IMG/VR virus record: IMGVR_UViG_3300009093_000094
Coordinates: 1-32,938 of that record
From: a virus
Strand: one strand, 5' to 3'
DNA: 32,938 nucleotides
This document shows, in pieces, positions 18,555 to 31,739 of this stretch; the stretch's first letter is position 1, and the number at the start of each line of letters is the position of its first letter. The position numbers were made by a program, and so were the translations under genes. The notes under the pieces were generated by a model, which was not told where the DNA came from, made no database searches, and worked only from the letters and a program-made list of their open reading frames with translations.

Positions 18555-19178
18555 ATGGCCCTGAACTGGACTGCCAAGGCCCCGGACGATGTGTATCGCT
18601 ACACATGGACCCCGGCGCTGGCCGAGGGTGATAGCGTTTCCAGCTATTCGGTCGATGTTGACGGGGCGACCATCGTCGCTGACAGCCTGGAAGATAACGC
18701 GGTTGTCCTGTTCGTCTCGGGCGGCACGGCAGGTTCGACTGCCACGTTCACGCTTGAGGCGGTTTCAGCCGACGGGGAAACCCTCACCGAAACGATCTAC
18801 CTGCCGATTGTCGCCTCCGTTGCGACCGGGCCGACCGCGCGCGACGTGTGCAACTTCGCCCTGCGCAAGGTTGTCGGGCTGGGTGAGGAACCCGACGCCG
18901 ATCAGGAAGATGACGCGCTTGAGCGCCTGAACGACATGCTGCGCGCATGGAATGCGACGGGGGCTGATACGGGGGCGACCTTCCCGCTTGAGGCCGGCAC
19001 GGTTCTTGCCGTGCGCGACGAGTTCCTGAGCGCGATCAAGCACAACATGGTGCTGCAAGTGGCCGACATCTACGGCGCGGAGGTTTCCCCTCTGACGGTC
19101 GAGGCGGCCCGGCGCGGCCTGCAACTGGTCAAGGTGGCGAACCTGCCTGAAGACCGCGCCGGGGCCGAGTATTACTGA
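18555..19178 (+). CDS. Tail accessory protein: Ig-like domain fused to P22 gp4-like domain (207 aa)
   Basis: Residues 1-88 form a beta-sandwich-like domain (WTAKAPDDVYRYTWTPALAE, DSVSSYSVDVDG, TATFTLEAVSADG) as found in bacterial Ig-like or phage fibre modules. Residues about 92-207 match P22 gp4 head-completion proteins: TARDVCNFALRKVVGLGEEP, then DDALERLNDMLRAWNATGAD. Gp4 binds below the portal and extends the DNA channel. The N-terminal module is extra compared with P22. It starts four bases after the upstream gene and ends in a TGATG overlap with the gp10-like gene. Confidence 0.78.
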   Translation: MALNWTAKAPDDVYRYTWTPALAEGDSVSSYSVDVDGATIVADSLEDNAVVLFVSGGTAGSTATFTLEAVSADGETLTETIYLPIVASVATGPTARDVCNFALRKVVGLGEEPDADQEDDALERLNDMLRAWNATGADTGATFPLEAGTVLAVRDEFLSAIKHNMVLQVADIYGAEVSPLTVEAARRGLQLVKVANLPEDRAGAEYY

Positions 19179-20515
19179 TGCGGCTGCAATTCGGCCTTAC
19201 TGCGTTCGAGCGGGCGCGGGGCAACCTGCCGTCCCTGCCCGTCGTCAACATGTTTGCCGAGGAAGCGCCGACCGAACAGGCGGGCGTCGTCCTGCAATCG
19301 CGCCCCGGCCTTGCCGACCGCTCCGCCAACATGGGTTCAGGCCCGGTGCAGGCGCTGTTCAAGGGCGACGGCGTGCTGGACAGCGCGCTCTACGGGGTTT
19401 CCGGCACGCACCTGTACGCTGGGACGACCGATAAGGGCGCGGTGAACGGTTCCGGGCCGTTTTCCATGGCTGGATATGAGGATAAGCTGTTCGTCGCCGG
19501 GGGAGGCTCCCTGTGGGGCTATGACGGGGCCTCCCTTGCGGCGGTGACGTTCCCTGACAGCGCCAATGTCATCAAGTGTCTGGTCGGTGCATCGCGGGTT
19601 ATCGCAATCCGCTCGGATACCGAAAAGGTCTACTGGTCGGACGTGCTGTCCTCCACGATTGACGGACTGTCGTTCGCAACGGCGGAGAGCCAGCCCGACC
19701 GCCTGAGGGATGCACTGTTCATTGACGACGTGCTGATCCTGTTTGGCGCGGAGACGGTGGAGTTCTGGCCGAATACGGGCGATCCCGACCTGCCGTTTCA
19801 GCCGCTTGAGGGCCGTGTATTCGAGCGCGGGGTTCGGGCGACGGGCTGCGCCACCAAGTTCGGCTCGACCTTCGCATGGGTGACGAACGCCAACCAGATT
19901 TGCATCTCCGACCCGGAAAACATCGTGTCCAAGGCCGGGCTAGAGGCGCTGATCGAAGCTTCCTCAAGCGTCCGCCTGCAAACCTTCATGCTGGAAGGGA
20001 CCGAGTTCCTCTGGCTCAAGCTGGACGATGCCGACTGGGTGTTCTCGGCCCGCGCGAAAACGTGGTCGCAGTTTTCCTCATACGGTGCGGACGGATGGGC
20101 GCCGACCTGCTTTGCCGGGGGCGTATTCGGGGCAGCGGACGGCCACACGCTGGCATGGGGCACCGATCACGTTGACCTTGGCGACGTGCTGGAACGCCGC
20201 TTCCGGGCCGGAACGCAGATCAATTCGTCCGGGGTGACGGTGGACAATCTCTCGCTGCGGACCAATCCCGGCCAGACCCCTTACCTGAGCGGCGATTACA
20301 CAGATCCTGTGGTTGAAGCGCGGTTGTCGAAGGACGCCGGGCAGACGTGGGGCAACTGGAAAGCCAAGTCGCTCGGCGCGCAGGGGCAATATCGTCAACT
20401 GGTCCGCTGGGCCGCGCTCGGACAGGCCCGTCAACCGGGCTTGCTGGTGGAGTTCCGCGTGACCGACCCGGTGCCGTTCCGGATCTCCGACGTGCTGGTG
20501 AATGAGCCATGGTAA
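19178..20515 (+). CDS. Packaged DNA stabilisation protein, P22 gp10-like (445 aa)
   Basis: Size, position after the gp4-like gene, and sequence features fit the Phage_stabilise family: NLPSLPVVNMFAEEAPTEQA at the start, repeated beta-propeller-like blades (ALYGVSGTHLYAG, EDKLFVAGGGSLWGYDG, DALFIDDVLILFGAETVEFW) and a conserved LSKDAGQTWGNWK near the C-terminus. In P22, gp10 forms the hexameric tail hub that seals DNA in the head. It starts at a TGATG overlap and overlaps the next gene by seven bases. Confidence 0.85.
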   Translation: MRLQFGLTAFERARGNLPSLPVVNMFAEEAPTEQAGVVLQSRPGLADRSANMGSGPVQALFKGDGVLDSALYGVSGTHLYAGTTDKGAVNGSGPFSMAGYEDKLFVAGGGSLWGYDGASLAAVTFPDSANVIKCLVGASRVIAIRSDTEKVYWSDVLSSTIDGLSFATAESQPDRLRDALFIDDVLILFGAETVEFWPNTGDPDLPFQPLEGRVFERGVRATGCATKFGSTFAWVTNANQICISDPENIVSKAGLEALIEASSSVRLQTFMLEGTEFLWLKLDDADWVFSARAKTWSQFSSYGADGWAPTCFAGGVFGAADGHTLAWGTDHVDLGDVLERRFRAGTQINSSGVTVDNLSLRTNPGQTPYLSGDYTDPVVEARLSKDAGQTWGNWKAKSLGAQGQYRQLVRWAALGQARQPGLLVEFRVTDPVPFRISDVLVNEPW

Positions 20516-21135
20516 GCCTGCCCAAGCTCCAGCGCACGGTTCCGATTACCGGCGCGGACGGCAAGCCGACTGTCCCGTTCCATATCTGGTTCAACAAGGC
20601 AATCGACAGCATCGAAGCTGCCCTGACGCAGCTCACCGATCAGGTGGCAGCGATTCAGGCAGCGCAGGACGCGGCGGACGCGGCGAATACCGCTGCTGCG
20701 GCGGCCGATGCGGCTGCGACAACCGCGACAACGGCGGCGGCGGCGGCGCAGACCACGGCGGATACCATCGTCAACGACCAGGCGCTGATCCTGTCGTGGG
20801 TCAGCGGCATGATTATGACCGGGCACGACGCCGGAGCCGACGCCTCGATCTCGATCAGCGCCCACACCCGGTATTACGGGGACGGGACCAGCGCATCGGT
20901 CAATTCCGGCAGCTTCACCGGCAAGGCATATTCGACCACGTACTACATCTATTACGACGATTCCGGGCGGACCGGCGGCGCGGTTACCTACCAGATCAGC
21001 ACCAACTCGAACGATGCCGTTCAGGGCGGGATCAGGCATTTCGTGGGGGTTGTAACGACCCCTGCGGCAGCGGCAGCGGATACCTCCGGGGTAGGCCCCT
21101 ACCCTCCGGGCATCGGTGACGTGGTGTATTTCTGA
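20509..21135 (+). CDS. Tail protein with alanine-rich coiled coil (208 aa)
   Basis: A short N-terminal domain (MVSLPKLQRTVPITGADGKP, VPFHIWFNKAIDSIEAA) is followed by an Ala/Thr-rich helical stretch (about residues 45-90, AAIQAAQDAADAANTAAAA) typical of trimeric phage fibre stalks. The C-terminal half is a beta domain (SAHTRYYGDGTSASVNSG, YYIYYDDSGRTGG). Probably a tail needle or fibre component. It overlaps the gp10-like gene and ends in a TGATG with the next gene. Confidence 0.65.
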   Translation: MVSLPKLQRTVPITGADGKPTVPFHIWFNKAIDSIEAALTQLTDQVAAIQAAQDAADAANTAAAAADAAATTATTAAAAAQTTADTIVNDQALILSWVSGMIMTGHDAGADASISISAHTRYYGDGTSASVNSGSFTGKAYSTTYYIYYDDSGRTGGAVTYQISTNSNDAVQGGIRHFVGVVTTPAAAAADTSGVGPYPPGIGDVVYF

Positions 21136-22187
21136 TGCGGTTCATCGTTCTGGGCCTGCCCCGCTCCCGCACGGCATGGCTGGCCCGGTTTCTGACCTAC
21201 GGCCACCATATCTGCGGCCACGAGGAACTGCGCCACATGCGCAGTCTGGACGACGTGAAAGCGTGGATCTCACAGCCCATGACCGGATCGGCGGAAACGG
21301 CTGCGGCCCCGTGGTGGCGGACGTTGCTCCGGTTGGCCCCTGAGGTGCGGGTGGTCGTGGTGCGGCGGCCGGTTGACGAGGTGGTGGAAAGCCTCGCGGC
21401 CTTTGGATTCGACCGCCCGGTTATCCGACCGGCGATGGAGCGGCTTGACGCGAAGTTGGATCAGATCGCCAAGCGCGTGCCCTGCCTAGAAGTGGCCTTT
21501 GACGACCTGAACGAGGAAGCCACCTGCAAGGCGGTGTTCGAGCATTGCCTGCCCTACCCGTTCGACAAGGCCCACTGGCAACGCCTCGCGGGTGAGAACG
21601 TGCAATGCGATATGGTGGCGCTGGTCCGTTATGCCACGGCGTTCCGCCCGGCGATGGAGAAACTGGCAGCGCAAGCCCGCCACGCCGAACTGCGCGAGCT
21701 GATGGCCAAAAAGCCGGTCGAGCCGGATGGAATTACCTTTCAGGTAGAAGATTGCGCGACGTGGAAGCGCGACGGACGTAGGCTGTTCGAGGAACATTGC
21801 TTCACGGTGGGCGAAGATCCCCGCGAATGGGAGCGCAAGAACTGGCCGCTGTTCGAGGTGATTGAAAGCGTGGGCATGATGCAGATCACCACCGCCCGTA
21901 GCAACGGCCGGATGTTCGGCTACCTGATGACGCTGGTTTCACCCTCGCTGGTGAGCGAGGGGCGGACAGTCGCCGCGCACTCAACGTTTTACGCTGACCC
22001 GACCTTCCCCGGCCTTGGAATGAAACTGCAACGCGAAGCGCTCGCCCGGCTGAAAGAGCAGGGTGTGGACGAAGTGGTGTGGGAAGCCGGGAAGCGGGGC
22101 GACGGGCCACGCCTCGGCACGATGTATCGCCGCCTTGGCGCACAGGAACACGGGCAGACGTATCGCCTTGAACTGACGGAGCATTAG
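21135..22187 (+). CDS. Sulfotransferase-like plus GNAT acetyltransferase fusion (350 aa)
   Basis: The N-terminal half opens MRFIVLGLPRSRTAWLARFL, a 5'-PSB loop of PAPS-dependent sulfotransferases (GLPRSRTAW, residues 7-15), and carries a 3'-phosphate-type motif RRPVDEVVESL (77-87). The C-terminal half (about 195-350) reads as a GNAT fold, with SEGRTVAAHSTFYADPTFPG, then GLGMKLQREALARLKEQG (294-310), a motif-A-like acetyl-CoA site, and MYRRLGAQ (330-337). It sits between tail and ejection protein genes with a TGATG overlap, so it is expressed with virion genes. Possible roles are modification of virion proteins or host surface glycans. Domain calls come from motifs. Confidence 0.75.
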   Translation: MRFIVLGLPRSRTAWLARFLTYGHHICGHEELRHMRSLDDVKAWISQPMTGSAETAAAPWWRTLLRLAPEVRVVVVRRPVDEVVESLAAFGFDRPVIRPAMERLDAKLDQIAKRVPCLEVAFDDLNEEATCKAVFEHCLPYPFDKAHWQRLAGENVQCDMVALVRYATAFRPAMEKLAAQARHAELRELMAKKPVEPDGITFQVEDCATWKRDGRRLFEEHCFTVGEDPREWERKNWPLFEVIESVGMMQITTARSNGRMFGYLMTLVSPSLVSEGRTVAAHSTFYADPTFPGLGMKLQREALARLKEQGVDEVVWEAGKRGDGPRLGTMYRRLGAQEHGQTYRLELTEH

Positions 22188-22189
22188 AG

Positions 22190-23062
22190 ATGGGTCTAGC
22201 AGCAGCAGCAGTAGGCGCAGTCGGCGCGGTCGCTGGCGGATTGATTTCTGCCGGAGGCGCCAAGAGCGCGGCCAATGCCTCGGCGGCGGCCTCTGATCGT
22301 TCGTCTGCCGTTCAGCAGCAGATCTACGGGGAGAACAAGCAGACGCTTGCTCCCTATGTCCAGACCGGACTTCCGGCCACGCAGCAGATCAACGCCCTGC
22401 TCGGCCTTGCGCCCACCACGTCAACGACAGACTGGTCCGCCTACGCCAACGCGAACCCGGAGCTGATGGCGGCATTCAACGCGCAGCAGCAGAACCCCTA
22501 TTATGGTTATGGGGACGTTCTCAGCGGCATCTACGGCAAGTTCAACCTCCCGGGCAGCACGACGGGCGCGCAAGACCTCTCGACCTTCGCCCAGCAGTGG
22601 CACCAACAGCACGGCGGCGACCTCGGGGCCTATACGACCACGACCAATCCGCAGACCGCTGCCAATGCGGCGTTCGACATGTTCCGCAATTCGAGCGGCT
22701 ACGACTGGCGCTTGAAGCAGGGGATGAACGCGCTGAACTCCGGTTATGCCGGGGCGGGCACGATCAAGTCCGGCGCGGCGATGAAGGCGGCGGTTGACTA
22801 CGGACAGGGGCAGGCCAGCCAAGAGTTCGGCAACTACCTCAACTCGCTCGGCAACCAGCAAGGCGTCGGTTTGCAGGCGGCGGGAGCGCAGGCGAATGTC
22901 GGGGTTCAGGCAGCGAACAGCCTGGGCAATATTTACATGACGAACGGGGCCAATCAGGCGCAGGCGGCCATAGCGGGGGCTAATGCACTGGGCGGAGGGT
23001 TGGCAGGCGCAGCCAATGCGCTTGGCGGCATCCTGGCACCTAAATACAAGCTGGGGGTATGA
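22190..23062 (+). CDS. DNA ejection protein, P22 gp7-like (290 aa)
   Basis: The N-terminus is a Gly/Ala-rich amphipathic or membrane-inserting segment (MGLAAAAVGAVGAVAGGLIS), followed by the QTLAPYVQTGLPATQQINALLGL stretch common in phage ejection or DNA-transfer proteins. The C-terminal region repeats Gln/Ala/Gly helices (QASQEFGNYLNSLGNQQGVG, ANQAQAAIAGANALGG). Such proteins are packed in the virion and form a channel across the envelope during infection. It is the first of three ejection-type genes. Confidence 0.75.
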   Translation: MGLAAAAVGAVGAVAGGLISAGGAKSAANASAAASDRSSAVQQQIYGENKQTLAPYVQTGLPATQQINALLGLAPTTSTTDWSAYANANPELMAAFNAQQQNPYYGYGDVLSGIYGKFNLPGSTTGAQDLSTFAQQWHQQHGGDLGAYTTTTNPQTAANAAFDMFRNSSGYDWRLKQGMNALNSGYAGAGTIKSGAAMKAAVDYGQGQASQEFGNYLNSLGNQQGVGLQAAGAQANVGVQAANSLGNIYMTNGANQAQAAIAGANALGGGLAGAANALGGILAPKYKLGV

Positions 23063-23065
23063 TCC

Positions 23066-23833
23066 ATGGTTGGTGAAGTCGATTTCAGCCAGCTCCGCGT
23101 TCCCGACATCGGCGCGGCCTTCCAGCAGGGCTACCAGCAGAAGCGGAAGCAGAACGCCCTTGCTGCCTATGCGCAGAACCCGGACAACCCGCAGGCGCTC
23201 AATGCGCTGGCCGAGTTCAATCCGGAGTTCGTGGTACAGGCGAAGAAGCTGCAACTGCAAGAACAGCAGGCCAAGGCCAAGCAGGCGCAGGAAGCCAGCA
23301 TTGCCCATATCCAGCAGCTTGGGCGGCTGCTCAACCACGCCCGCGACGAGACGTCCTATCAGCAGGCCCGCGCCGCCGCCGCACAACTACCCGGCATGGA
23401 TATGTCGCAGATCCCCGCCAACTATGATCCTAACTGGGTAAACCAGCAGAAGCTGGTCCTTTCGGCCATCGAGAAGGACGGCGGGCAGGCCCTTTCGAAT
23501 TACGGCAAGATTGCCATGGATCGGGGTTTGCAGCCGGGCACGCCAGAGTTCGCGCAATTCGTGACGCAGGCGTGGGAGGCCGATCAGGTCAAGACCATCC
23601 CCTATACGCAGGGCGGCGGCGTGGCGGGCTACAACACCGCCACGGGCGCGGTGAATACCATCATTCAACCCAACCCCGGCGGCTATCAGACGGGTGCACC
23701 CGTTGGTGGCGGCTTCAAGGAAGGCCAGACCGCGACCAATCCGCAGACTGGCGAAAAGGTCCAGTTCCGGGGCGGCCAGTGGGTTCCGATGGGAGGCGGT
23801 AGCGGCAACGCTACCGGCGGCTTTCAACCATAA
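23066..23833 (+). CDS. Second ejection-type virion protein (255 aa)
   Basis: Residues 1-110 are helical with many Gln and Ala (GAAFQQGYQQKRKQNALAAY, EQQAKAKQAQEASIAHIQQL), as in P22 gp20-like proteins. The C-terminal third is Gly/Pro-rich (VNTIIQPNPGGYQTGAPVGG) with an FKEGQTATNPQTGEKVQFRG segment, a flexible linker that ends NATGGFQP at TAA 23831-23833. In the +1 frame an M15 peptidase domain continues at once. A UUU-C at 23822-23825 would allow a +1 shift joining them, so this protein may exist also as an extended form. Confidence 0.7.
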   Translation: MVGEVDFSQLRVPDIGAAFQQGYQQKRKQNALAAYAQNPDNPQALNALAEFNPEFVVQAKKLQLQEQQAKAKQAQEASIAHIQQLGRLLNHARDETSYQQARAAAAQLPGMDMSQIPANYDPNWVNQQKLVLSAIEKDGGQALSNYGKIAMDRGLQPGTPEFAQFVTQAWEADQVKTIPYTQGGGVAGYNTATGAVNTIIQPNPGGYQTGAPVGGGFKEGQTATNPQTGEKVQFRGGQWVPMGGGSGNATGGFQP

Positions 23834-23852
23834 CCTCGTCAACTTTCAGGGC

Positions 23853-24089
23853 ATGGGTGGGGAGCGGATCACCTCGACCTTCCGCACACCGTCCCACAAC
23901 GCAGCGGTTGGCGGTGTGTCCAACAGCTACCACACGCGGCGTGATGCAGCAGGCAACCCCATGGCGCGGGACAGCGTGCCGCCTCCGGGGATGAGCATGG
24001 GCGAATACGCCCGCAGGCTTCAGGCGCTCAATCCGCATCTGCAAGTGATTAACGAGGGCGATCACGTCCACATGGAACCGAAGGGCTAA
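23853..24089 (+). CDS. M15-like peptidase domain, virion-associated (78 aa; start uncertain)
   Basis: The sequence ITSTFRTPSHNAAVGGVSNSYH with downstream ARDSVPPPGMSMGEY and GDHVHMEP matches M15_3-type D-Ala-D-Ala/Glu-endopeptidases. Candidate zinc ligands are H27, an Asp at 31 or 40, and H73. ATG 23853 lacks a usable Shine-Dalgarno. The frame is open upstream through AFNHNLVNFQGMGG, directly beneath the end of the previous gene. It may thus be a separate protein, the product of +1 frameshifting, or the result of an indel that split one gene. Its likely role is local peptidoglycan cutting during DNA entry. Confidence 0.6.
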   Translation: MGGERITSTFRTPSHNAAVGGVSNSYHTRRDAAGNPMARDSVPPPGMSMGEYARRLQALNPHLQVINEGDHVHMEPKG

Positions 24090-29964: not shown

Positions 29965-30089
29965 CGGGCGCGCTGATCTTCTTCGGCAGCATCGCCGCTA
30001 CCGTCGTTGTGGCCATCCTCGCTGACACGCTGGTGGCCTACGTCATCCGCAAATGGCGAGAGCGCGTGCTGCGGAGGATGGGCCGATGA
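29961..30089 (+). CDS. Very small membrane protein (42 aa, GTG start)
   Basis: GTG 29961 overlaps the previous stop (GTGA) and the gene ends in an ATGA overlap. One transmembrane helix (ALIFFGSIAATVVVAILADT, about residues 4-23) is followed by a basic tail (VIRKWRERVLRRMGR), giving an N-out, C-in topology. Such peptides occur as holin accessory or antiholin proteins; this is inference from topology and position. Confidence 0.55.
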   Translation: MTGALIFFGSIAATVVVAILADTLVAYVIRKWRERVLRRMGR

Positions 30090-30358
30090 GCGAGCGCGTC
30101 TCTCACGAAGCGATCATCGAAGAACTCAGGCGGGGGGCTGCAAGGTTCGTGCAAATCGAGGAACAGCTCGCCAAAATTGCCGAGGCCGTGAAGCCGATCC
30201 CGCAAATGCAGGCCGACATAGCCGAGACGCGGGAACTGGTGGAGGCATGGGGCGCGGTGAAGCTGGCGGGCAGGTTCGTGAAGTGGGCCAGCGGGCTTGC
30301 GGGCGGCCTTGCAGTGATATGGGCGGCAATCAAGGTCGGATTGGGGGTATGGCGATGA
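30086..30358 (+). CDS. Holin-like protein with coiled coil and C-terminal membrane helix (90 aa)
   Basis: ATG 30086 lies in an ATGA overlap. The first 55 residues are charged and helical (HEAIIEELRRGAARFVQIEE, QMQADIAETRELVEAWG). One hydrophobic helix follows near the end (ASGLAGGLAVIWAAIKVGLG, about 68-87). This soluble-coil plus C-terminal anchor layout resembles XhlA-type hemolysin/holin accessory proteins. It immediately precedes and overlaps the endolysin gene, supporting a lysis role. Confidence 0.65.
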   Translation: MSERVSHEAIIEELRRGAARFVQIEEQLAKIAEAVKPIPQMQADIAETRELVEAWGAVKLAGRFVKWASGLAGGLAVIWAAIKVGLGVWR

Positions 30359-30753
30359 CTATCACGTTGAGCGAAAAAAGCCGGGCCAAGCTGTCCGGCG
30401 CGCATCCGGACCTGCGCAAGGTCATCGAGAGGGCGGCGGCCTTGTCTCCCATCGACTTCACCGTGCTTGAAGTGGTGCGGACATTGGCCCGGCAGAAAGA
30501 CCTGGTTGCCAAGGGCGCGTCGAAGACGATGAACTCGCGCCATCTTCCCGGTCCCGACGGGTTCAGCCGCGCGGTGGATATTGCCCCGCTCGATGGCGGG
30601 CAGGTGTCGTGGGCATGGCCGCTTTATCACAGGCTCGCGCCGATCATCAAACAGGCCGCGAAGGACATGGGCGTTCCGGTCGAATGGGGCGGCGATTGGC
30701 GCACGTTCAAGGATGGGCCGCATTGGCAGCTACCAGCGGGGGTGTATCCATGA
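30355..30753 (+). CDS. Endolysin, M15 L-Ala-D-Glu peptidase type (132 aa)
   Basis: ATG 30355 (ATGA overlap, GGGGG seven bases ahead) is preferred to ATG 30349. Motifs match M15 endolysins such as those of T5 and A500 types: SRHLPGPDGFSRAVDIAP provides His63 and Asp75, EWGGDW (110-115) provides the catalytic Glu110 and GPHWQL provides His123. The N-terminal motif LSGAHPDLRKVIERA is typical of the family. It cleaves the peptide stem of peptidoglycan. There is no signal peptide or membrane segment, so release needs a holin. Length is complete for a single-domain lysin. Confidence 0.9.
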   Translation: MTITLSEKSRAKLSGAHPDLRKVIERAAALSPIDFTVLEVVRTLARQKDLVAKGASKTMNSRHLPGPDGFSRAVDIAPLDGGQVSWAWPLYHRLAPIIKQAAKDMGVPVEWGGDWRTFKDGPHWQLPAGVYP

Positions 30754-31616: not shown

Positions 31617-31708
31617 CGGGGTAGCTGAAGGCGGGTGGGATTTGAACCCACGGCGGCCCGAAGGCCACTCCCGTGCACAGGTGCCTTAAACCGCTCAGCC
31701 ACCGCACT
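31617..31708 (-). tRNA. Degenerate class II tRNA-like element
   Basis: On the minus strand the T-arm (GTGGG TTCAAAT CCCAC, about 31652-31636) and the D-arm (GCTGAGCGGTTTAAGGC) are tRNA-like. The long variable arm is GGCC TTCG GGCC. Around them AGTGCGG and CCGCCTT can form six of seven acceptor pairs. A tRNA-Ser/Leu style body is clear, but the anticodon arm (ACCTGTGCACGGGAG region) does not form a normal 5-bp stem or give a Ser or Leu anticodon, and no CCA is encoded. It is either a pseudo-tRNA, a heavily diverged phage tRNA or an att-derived remnant. The ends given are approximate. Confidence 0.5.
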
Positions 31709-31711
31709 CCA

Positions 31712-31739
31712 GCCCCCGCAGAATCGCACCTCAGGGGGC
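31712..31739. repeat. Inverted repeat upstream of the tRNA-like element
   Basis: GCCCCC (31712-31717) and GGGGGC (31734-31739) are perfect complements across 16 bases. No T-run follows in either direction, so it is not a standard terminator. It sits between the tRNA-like sequence and the end of the next minus-strand gene. Confidence 0.4.

Follow-up and report, generated by a model that had tools for sequence, protein, structure and literature searches.

The window analyzed here, meaning the whole stretch of DNA under study, is a virus record 32,938 bases long that encodes TerL, a portal, a coat protein, a P22/GP4-type adaptor, an Hc3 stabilizer, an ejection protein, an endolysin, and a spanin. 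Because of this set of terminase, portal, adaptor, Hc3, ejection, and lysis genes, we assign it to a short-tailed phage. Among sequenced phages, two cyanophages, Pan3 and Pam1, have the structural genes closest to its own. The gene of interest (21135..22187, + strand) is an intact ORF of 350 aa with an ATG start, exactly as placed in a preliminary description of this DNA, and encodes a sulfotransferase-like/GNAT fusion. It is preceded by genes for a head closure/stabilization protein (19178..20515, +; Hc3, of the P22 gp10/Pam1 needle-head type; phrog_578, 1.5e-61) and a tail needle/fiber-like protein that is a homologue of Pam1_10 (20509..21135, +). It is followed by an ejection protein gene (22190..23062, +; phrog_598, 1.4e-27), the most constant neighbor of the fusion. 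The end of the needle/fiber-like gene overlaps the fusion start, the stop of the one and the start of the other sharing TGATG (21133-21137), and the ejection gene starts 2 nt past the fusion stop, which bears out the translational coupling to tail and ejection genes proposed earlier.

Several other features of the window were noted. The second ejection region (23066-24089) looks split into a 255-aa ORF (23066-23833), a 131-aa ORF (23694-24089) that has a GTG start, overlaps the 255-aa ORF, and contains a Peptidase_M15_3 stretch, and then an 878-aa ORF; in relatives, a protein of ~890 aa is linked to the first piece of this region. The endolysin (30007-30753) has an M15_4 peptidase domain, its longest ORF opening with TTG more than 110 residues ahead of the domain. 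A tRNA-Leu(aag) is predicted at 31627-31719 (-), on the strand opposite the late genes.

The N-terminal domain has a predicted sulfotransferase fold

AlphaFold2 (AF2), Foldseek, and PHROG 10855 all assign a sulfotransferase fold to the N-terminal part of the protein (residues ~1-192; 21135..21710, +). The AF2 model of the full-length fusion has a pLDDT of 87.6 and a pTM of 0.73, and because of this pTM the placement of the domains relative to each other is less sure than each domain; modeled alone, the N-domain reaches a pLDDT of 91.6 and a pTM of 0.87. In profile searches, the N-part matches PHROG 10855 at 1.9e-15, as do 72/72 family members. It also matches Pfam Sulfotransfer_3 at 1e-5, scoring 25.2 bits, or 26.4 when the N-part is searched by itself, where the gathering cut-off is 27, and 34/72 members match this Pfam at E<=0.01. 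A profile search of the PDB retrieved two solved sulfotransferases with marginal E-values of 0.007 and 0.015. When the model was compared with the PDB by Foldseek, the five best matches were tyrosylprotein sulfotransferases (8w5z, 4.7e-05; 3ap2/3ap1, ~1e-4), the best 25 were all sulfotransferases with a TM by query of ~0.45-0.61, and kinases ranked lower. For the modeled domain, such scores are at the level of a remote relative (TM ~0.6 by query length).

Motifs were assigned by position in an alignment of the 72 copies of the fusion (69 distinct) that align full-length over both domains. The putative 5'-phosphosulfate-binding loop GLPRSRTAW (residues 7-15; 21153..21179, +) follows the pattern PRSR[TS]xW, with P9, R10, R12, and W15 in 72/72 copies and S11 in 71/72, Arg12 invariably taking the place of the Gly in the usual PxSGTT/PRSGTT (72/72). 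Sulfotransferases bind the 3'-phosphate through an Arg and a Ser eight residues apart, and the putative 3'-phosphate-binding motif RRPVDEVVESL (residues 77-87; 21363..21395, +) has R78 in 72/72 and S86 in 71/72, with a spacing of 8. Between the two lies CGHEEL (21213..21230, +), a candidate catalytic base region that reads CGH[ED]E across the alignment and corresponds to CGEETR of human TPST2, the sequence of which was confirmed in the PDB entry. In TPST2, the second Glu of CGEETR is the base. Here, H29 is present in 72/72 and residue 30 is Glu/Asp in 72/72, which makes H29 or Glu/Asp30, by position after the 5' loop, the candidate catalytic base.

The closest folds are therefore those of TPST1/TPST2, with which the N-domain shares a CG[HE]E[ET] base region placed alike after the 5' loop and an Arg/Ser 3' site with the usual spacing. 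In contrast to these proteins, with which it has ~15-18% identity, the N-domain has PRSR rather than PRSG, is shorter (194 vs ~280-300 aa), and is fused to a GNAT. A protein acceptor is plausible given the TPST-like fold, which does not prove tyrosine; as the modeled resemblance is one of fold only, we do not class the N-domain as a TPST with a tyrosine peptide acceptor. Its relatives in sequence are phage sulfotransferase-like proteins of PHROG 38824/10855, such as Xanthomonas phage FoX4 gp51c. The PR[ST]R[ST]xW loop recurs in the FoX4 protein, which differs in that it is standalone and is encoded outside the virion module of a phage with tape-measure-type (long) tail genes.

Two other readings of the N-domain were considered. 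A kinase/NTPase is not favored, since shikimate and gluconate kinases appeared only below the sulfotransferases and there is no Walker GK[ST]. Matches to Pfam 'DnaG_DnaB_bind' and to a designed helix bundle in the PDB were short and of low information and were discarded.

The C-terminal domain is a predicted acetyltransferase

The C-terminal part (residues ~199-350; 21729..22184, +) is assigned to the GNAT fold by Foldseek and PHROG 1249. It matches PHROG 1249 'acetyltransferase' at 2e-5 in profile searches, as do 54/72 members. Foldseek returned 548 PDB chains at E<=0.001, and the best 50 of the 548 are acetyltransferase structures; superposition on the GNAT structure 2r7h gives a TM of 0.71 by target length. 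The putative acetyl-CoA loop FPGLGMKLQR (22005..22034, +), placed by position in the 72-sequence alignment, has G293 in 70/72 and G295 in 71/72 but no Q/R at the head of the canonical pattern Q/RxxGxG/A; Y331, the Tyr of helix 4, is conserved in 65/72. The C-domain is directly homologous to the GNAT of Vibrio phage 1.015.O (30% identity), and the Pam1 GNAT is a weak profile match, both it and the C-domain matching PHROG 1249.

Profile searches, AF2, and Foldseek thus agree on a sulfotransferase and a GNAT in one frame, as first proposed. Both folds are confident predictions, and comparison of the active sites found the catalytic positions kept across homologues. Since these positions are near-invariant, catalysis is likely for both predicted halves. 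Donor binding could differ from that of typical enzymes because Arg replaces Gly in the 5' loop and the GNAT loop has no leading Q/R.

The fusion occupies a known GNAT slot

A gene of the phrog_598 ejection family begins <=60 nt downstream of the fusion in 51/68 loci, and in the P22-type majority, which includes redundant loci, a head-closure protein lies upstream. In T7-type prophages of Azospirillum, the gene upstream of the fusion encodes tubular protein B and the one downstream encodes a gp14-like protein, which puts the fusion in the T7 gene 13 slot; the slot in the window is analogous to it. A standalone GNAT fills the slot in Pam1, Pan3, and a Vibrio zobellvirus. These GNATs of PHROG 1249 (Pam1_11, Pan3_09, and that of Vibrio phage 1.015.O) are encoded in the same place, near or directly before ejection genes, and differ from the fusion in being standalone, without a sulfotransferase domain. 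Two more are grouped with them by report only: a cobavirus GNAT in the matching place, which was equated with T7 gp13 and morphogenesis (PMC6775973), and ORF12 of ZP6, a GNAT gene that adjoins tubular protein B (PMC8515928). Since standalone GNATs sit there elsewhere, a GNAT in this slot is already known, and the novelty lies in the added sulfotransferase domain. The view that assembly does not account for an enzyme in this position consequently fails for the GNAT, which is normal in podoviruses, and stands for the sulfotransferase, which is not.

The slot may also hold no enzyme. A protein of the PHROG 12032 'short tail fiber/adhesin' group is found there in Rhodoferax P26218, Vibrio 1.211, and ctkAd229; at L006:9455-9913, L007:8972-9532, and L009:8699-9574, the protein that precedes the ejection gene in place of a GNAT belongs to PHROG 12032/24280. 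With such proteins replacing the GNAT in other podoviruses, the slot looks like an exchange site. When neighbors were compared across loci, no partner gene specific to the fusion was found; as the ejection family also lies beside standalone GNATs and beside non-enzyme genes, none is specific to the sulfotransferase half. In one locus (L088:5986-7056), the fusion is instead flanked by the gene for the large terminase subunit and one for a portal-like head-tail adaptor, and the coat protein belongs to PHROG 212.

The shared slot raises the question of whether the fusion acts like T7 gp13, i.e., as a morphogenesis factor that scaffolds or chaperones the internal proteins of the virion with no need for catalysis. 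Besides the slot itself, Pfam's name for gp13, 'probable scaffold protein', and the equation of the cobavirus GNAT with it argue for such a role. However, such a role would not require the PAPS-site and candidate catalytic residues, which are nearly invariant across the 72 copies, and no sequence relation to T7 gp13 (PF11090) was detected: gp13 belongs to another Pfam and PHROG, profile searches of the window protein and family members gave no match to PF11090/PHROG 308, and homology of the C-domain with gp13 was discarded at an hhalign probability of 0.1%. We consider this explanation improbable.

The two domains are fused throughout the family

Scans of IMG/VR, whose metagenomic contigs are often partial, yielded 145 relatives confirmed by full-length alignment and 212 by the C-domain, from each of which 80 loci were kept; PHROG and Pfam names in these loci are annotations. 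Three further copies were found in GTDB genomes, those of a Nevskia MAG, Azospirillum rugosum, and a Beijerinckiaceae MAG. The fusion was not found in INPHARED (50,697 phage records), where the sole match to the C-domain was a Vibrio GNAT, or in 72,556 plasmids. All ORFs sufficiently complete to be classified are fusions (148 ORF records, some of them redundant between the scans). No split copy that is complete was found among family ORFs: the N-only and C-only records are either fragments at contig ends or one of two standalone proteins, that of FoX4 and the Vibrio GNAT. Identities of the N- and C-domains are correlated (r of 0.87 for all pairs and 0.66 for distant pairs), a covariation that fits one fusion event. 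For close pairs, pooled dN/dS is 0.16 (N) and 0.10 (C), values that indicate purifying selection on each domain. The bifunctional group-transfer enzyme predicted at the outset thus has four lines of support: the folds, the conservation of the motifs, the obligate fusion, and this selection.

In the tree of the fusion, all five T7-type copies group in a single clade with good support, and P22-type copies lie elsewhere. These T7-type copies are in prophages L064, L065, L066, L071, and L099, the last in Azospirillum rugosum. Between phages, the fusion is 53-68% identical, in contrast to mostly 23-32% for Hc3, and Pan3, whose Hc3 is 44% identical, is yet without the fusion. Both the T7-type clade within the tree and this mismatch of identities are signs that phages have exchanged the gene.

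From phage to phage, the fusion diverges much less than the neighboring structural genes do, as would also be expected of an enzyme whose target is not phage specific. The target might then lie in the host, for takeover or counter-defense, the protein being made late or carried in. A precedent is Rac, a phiKMV-type GNAT that inactivates host RNA polymerase, and Rac-type functions have been assigned to phage GNATs, one of them in this part of a podovirus genome (PMC8515928; PMC10269572). However, the fusion is tightly coupled to late virion genes rather than early genes, its downstream neighbor is constant across phages of differing structure, and no defense-linked neighbor was seen. A host target seems to us rather unlikely, if a serious contender.

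Possible role in virion protein modification

Our preferred reading, held tentatively and at a little less than an even chance, is that the fusion is a late bifunctional modifying enzyme of the virion/ejection module that targets virion proteins made alongside it. We favor virion-protein modification because of the position of the gene and its coupling to the ejection protein, and, judged by gene neighborhood, modification of tail or ejection proteins is the best of the options in the preliminary description. Against this model, at least one copy, that of L088, lies away from ejection genes.

Sugars and small molecules are substrates of sulfotransferases and GNATs alike, which fits another of the options first proposed, in which surface glycans or small molecules are sulfated and/or acetylated, for example to change a receptor and block superinfection. 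Yet no glycan-synthesis gene was recognized beside the fusion, the gene belongs to the virion module, and the closest folds are protein sulfotransferases, though other sulfotransferases score close behind. We find this reading quite improbable, and the analysis lent no support to superinfection exclusion or Nod-factor-like substrates.

Under virion-protein modification, we infer that PAPS made by the host would be the sulfate donor of the N-domain and acetyl-CoA the acetyl donor of the GNAT domain. The latter domain occupies the slot that standalone GNAT genes fill elsewhere among podoviruses; the sulfotransferase domain was probably gained in a single fusion, after which the fused gene would have spread between phage types. 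The first target would be the adjacent ejection protein, followed by the tail needle/fiber, and modification would take place in the producing cell before or during virion assembly.

Sulfation of virion proteins, if true, would be a new kind of virion modification, and we know of no earlier case of sulfated virion proteins. The wider claim, that phages post-translationally sulfate (and acetylate) tail or injected proteins of their own, so that the making of an infectious podovirus virion includes protein sulfation, has in our judgment a small though appreciable chance of being correct. The role of phage sulfotransferases has been called unclear (PMC10580990), and a literature search for phage sulfotransferase phrases returned no match. 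One conserved gene, found in a preferred place in many uncultured podoviruses, joins this question to that of the GNAT in the gp13 slot, and the copy in a prophage of a named Azospirillum strain makes both testable together.

As to the sulfate donor, no phage-encoded APS kinase was found in the six viral contigs tested, and an APS kinase is present in both bacterial genomes tested that hold a copy of the fusion, a distribution consistent with the use of host PAPS.
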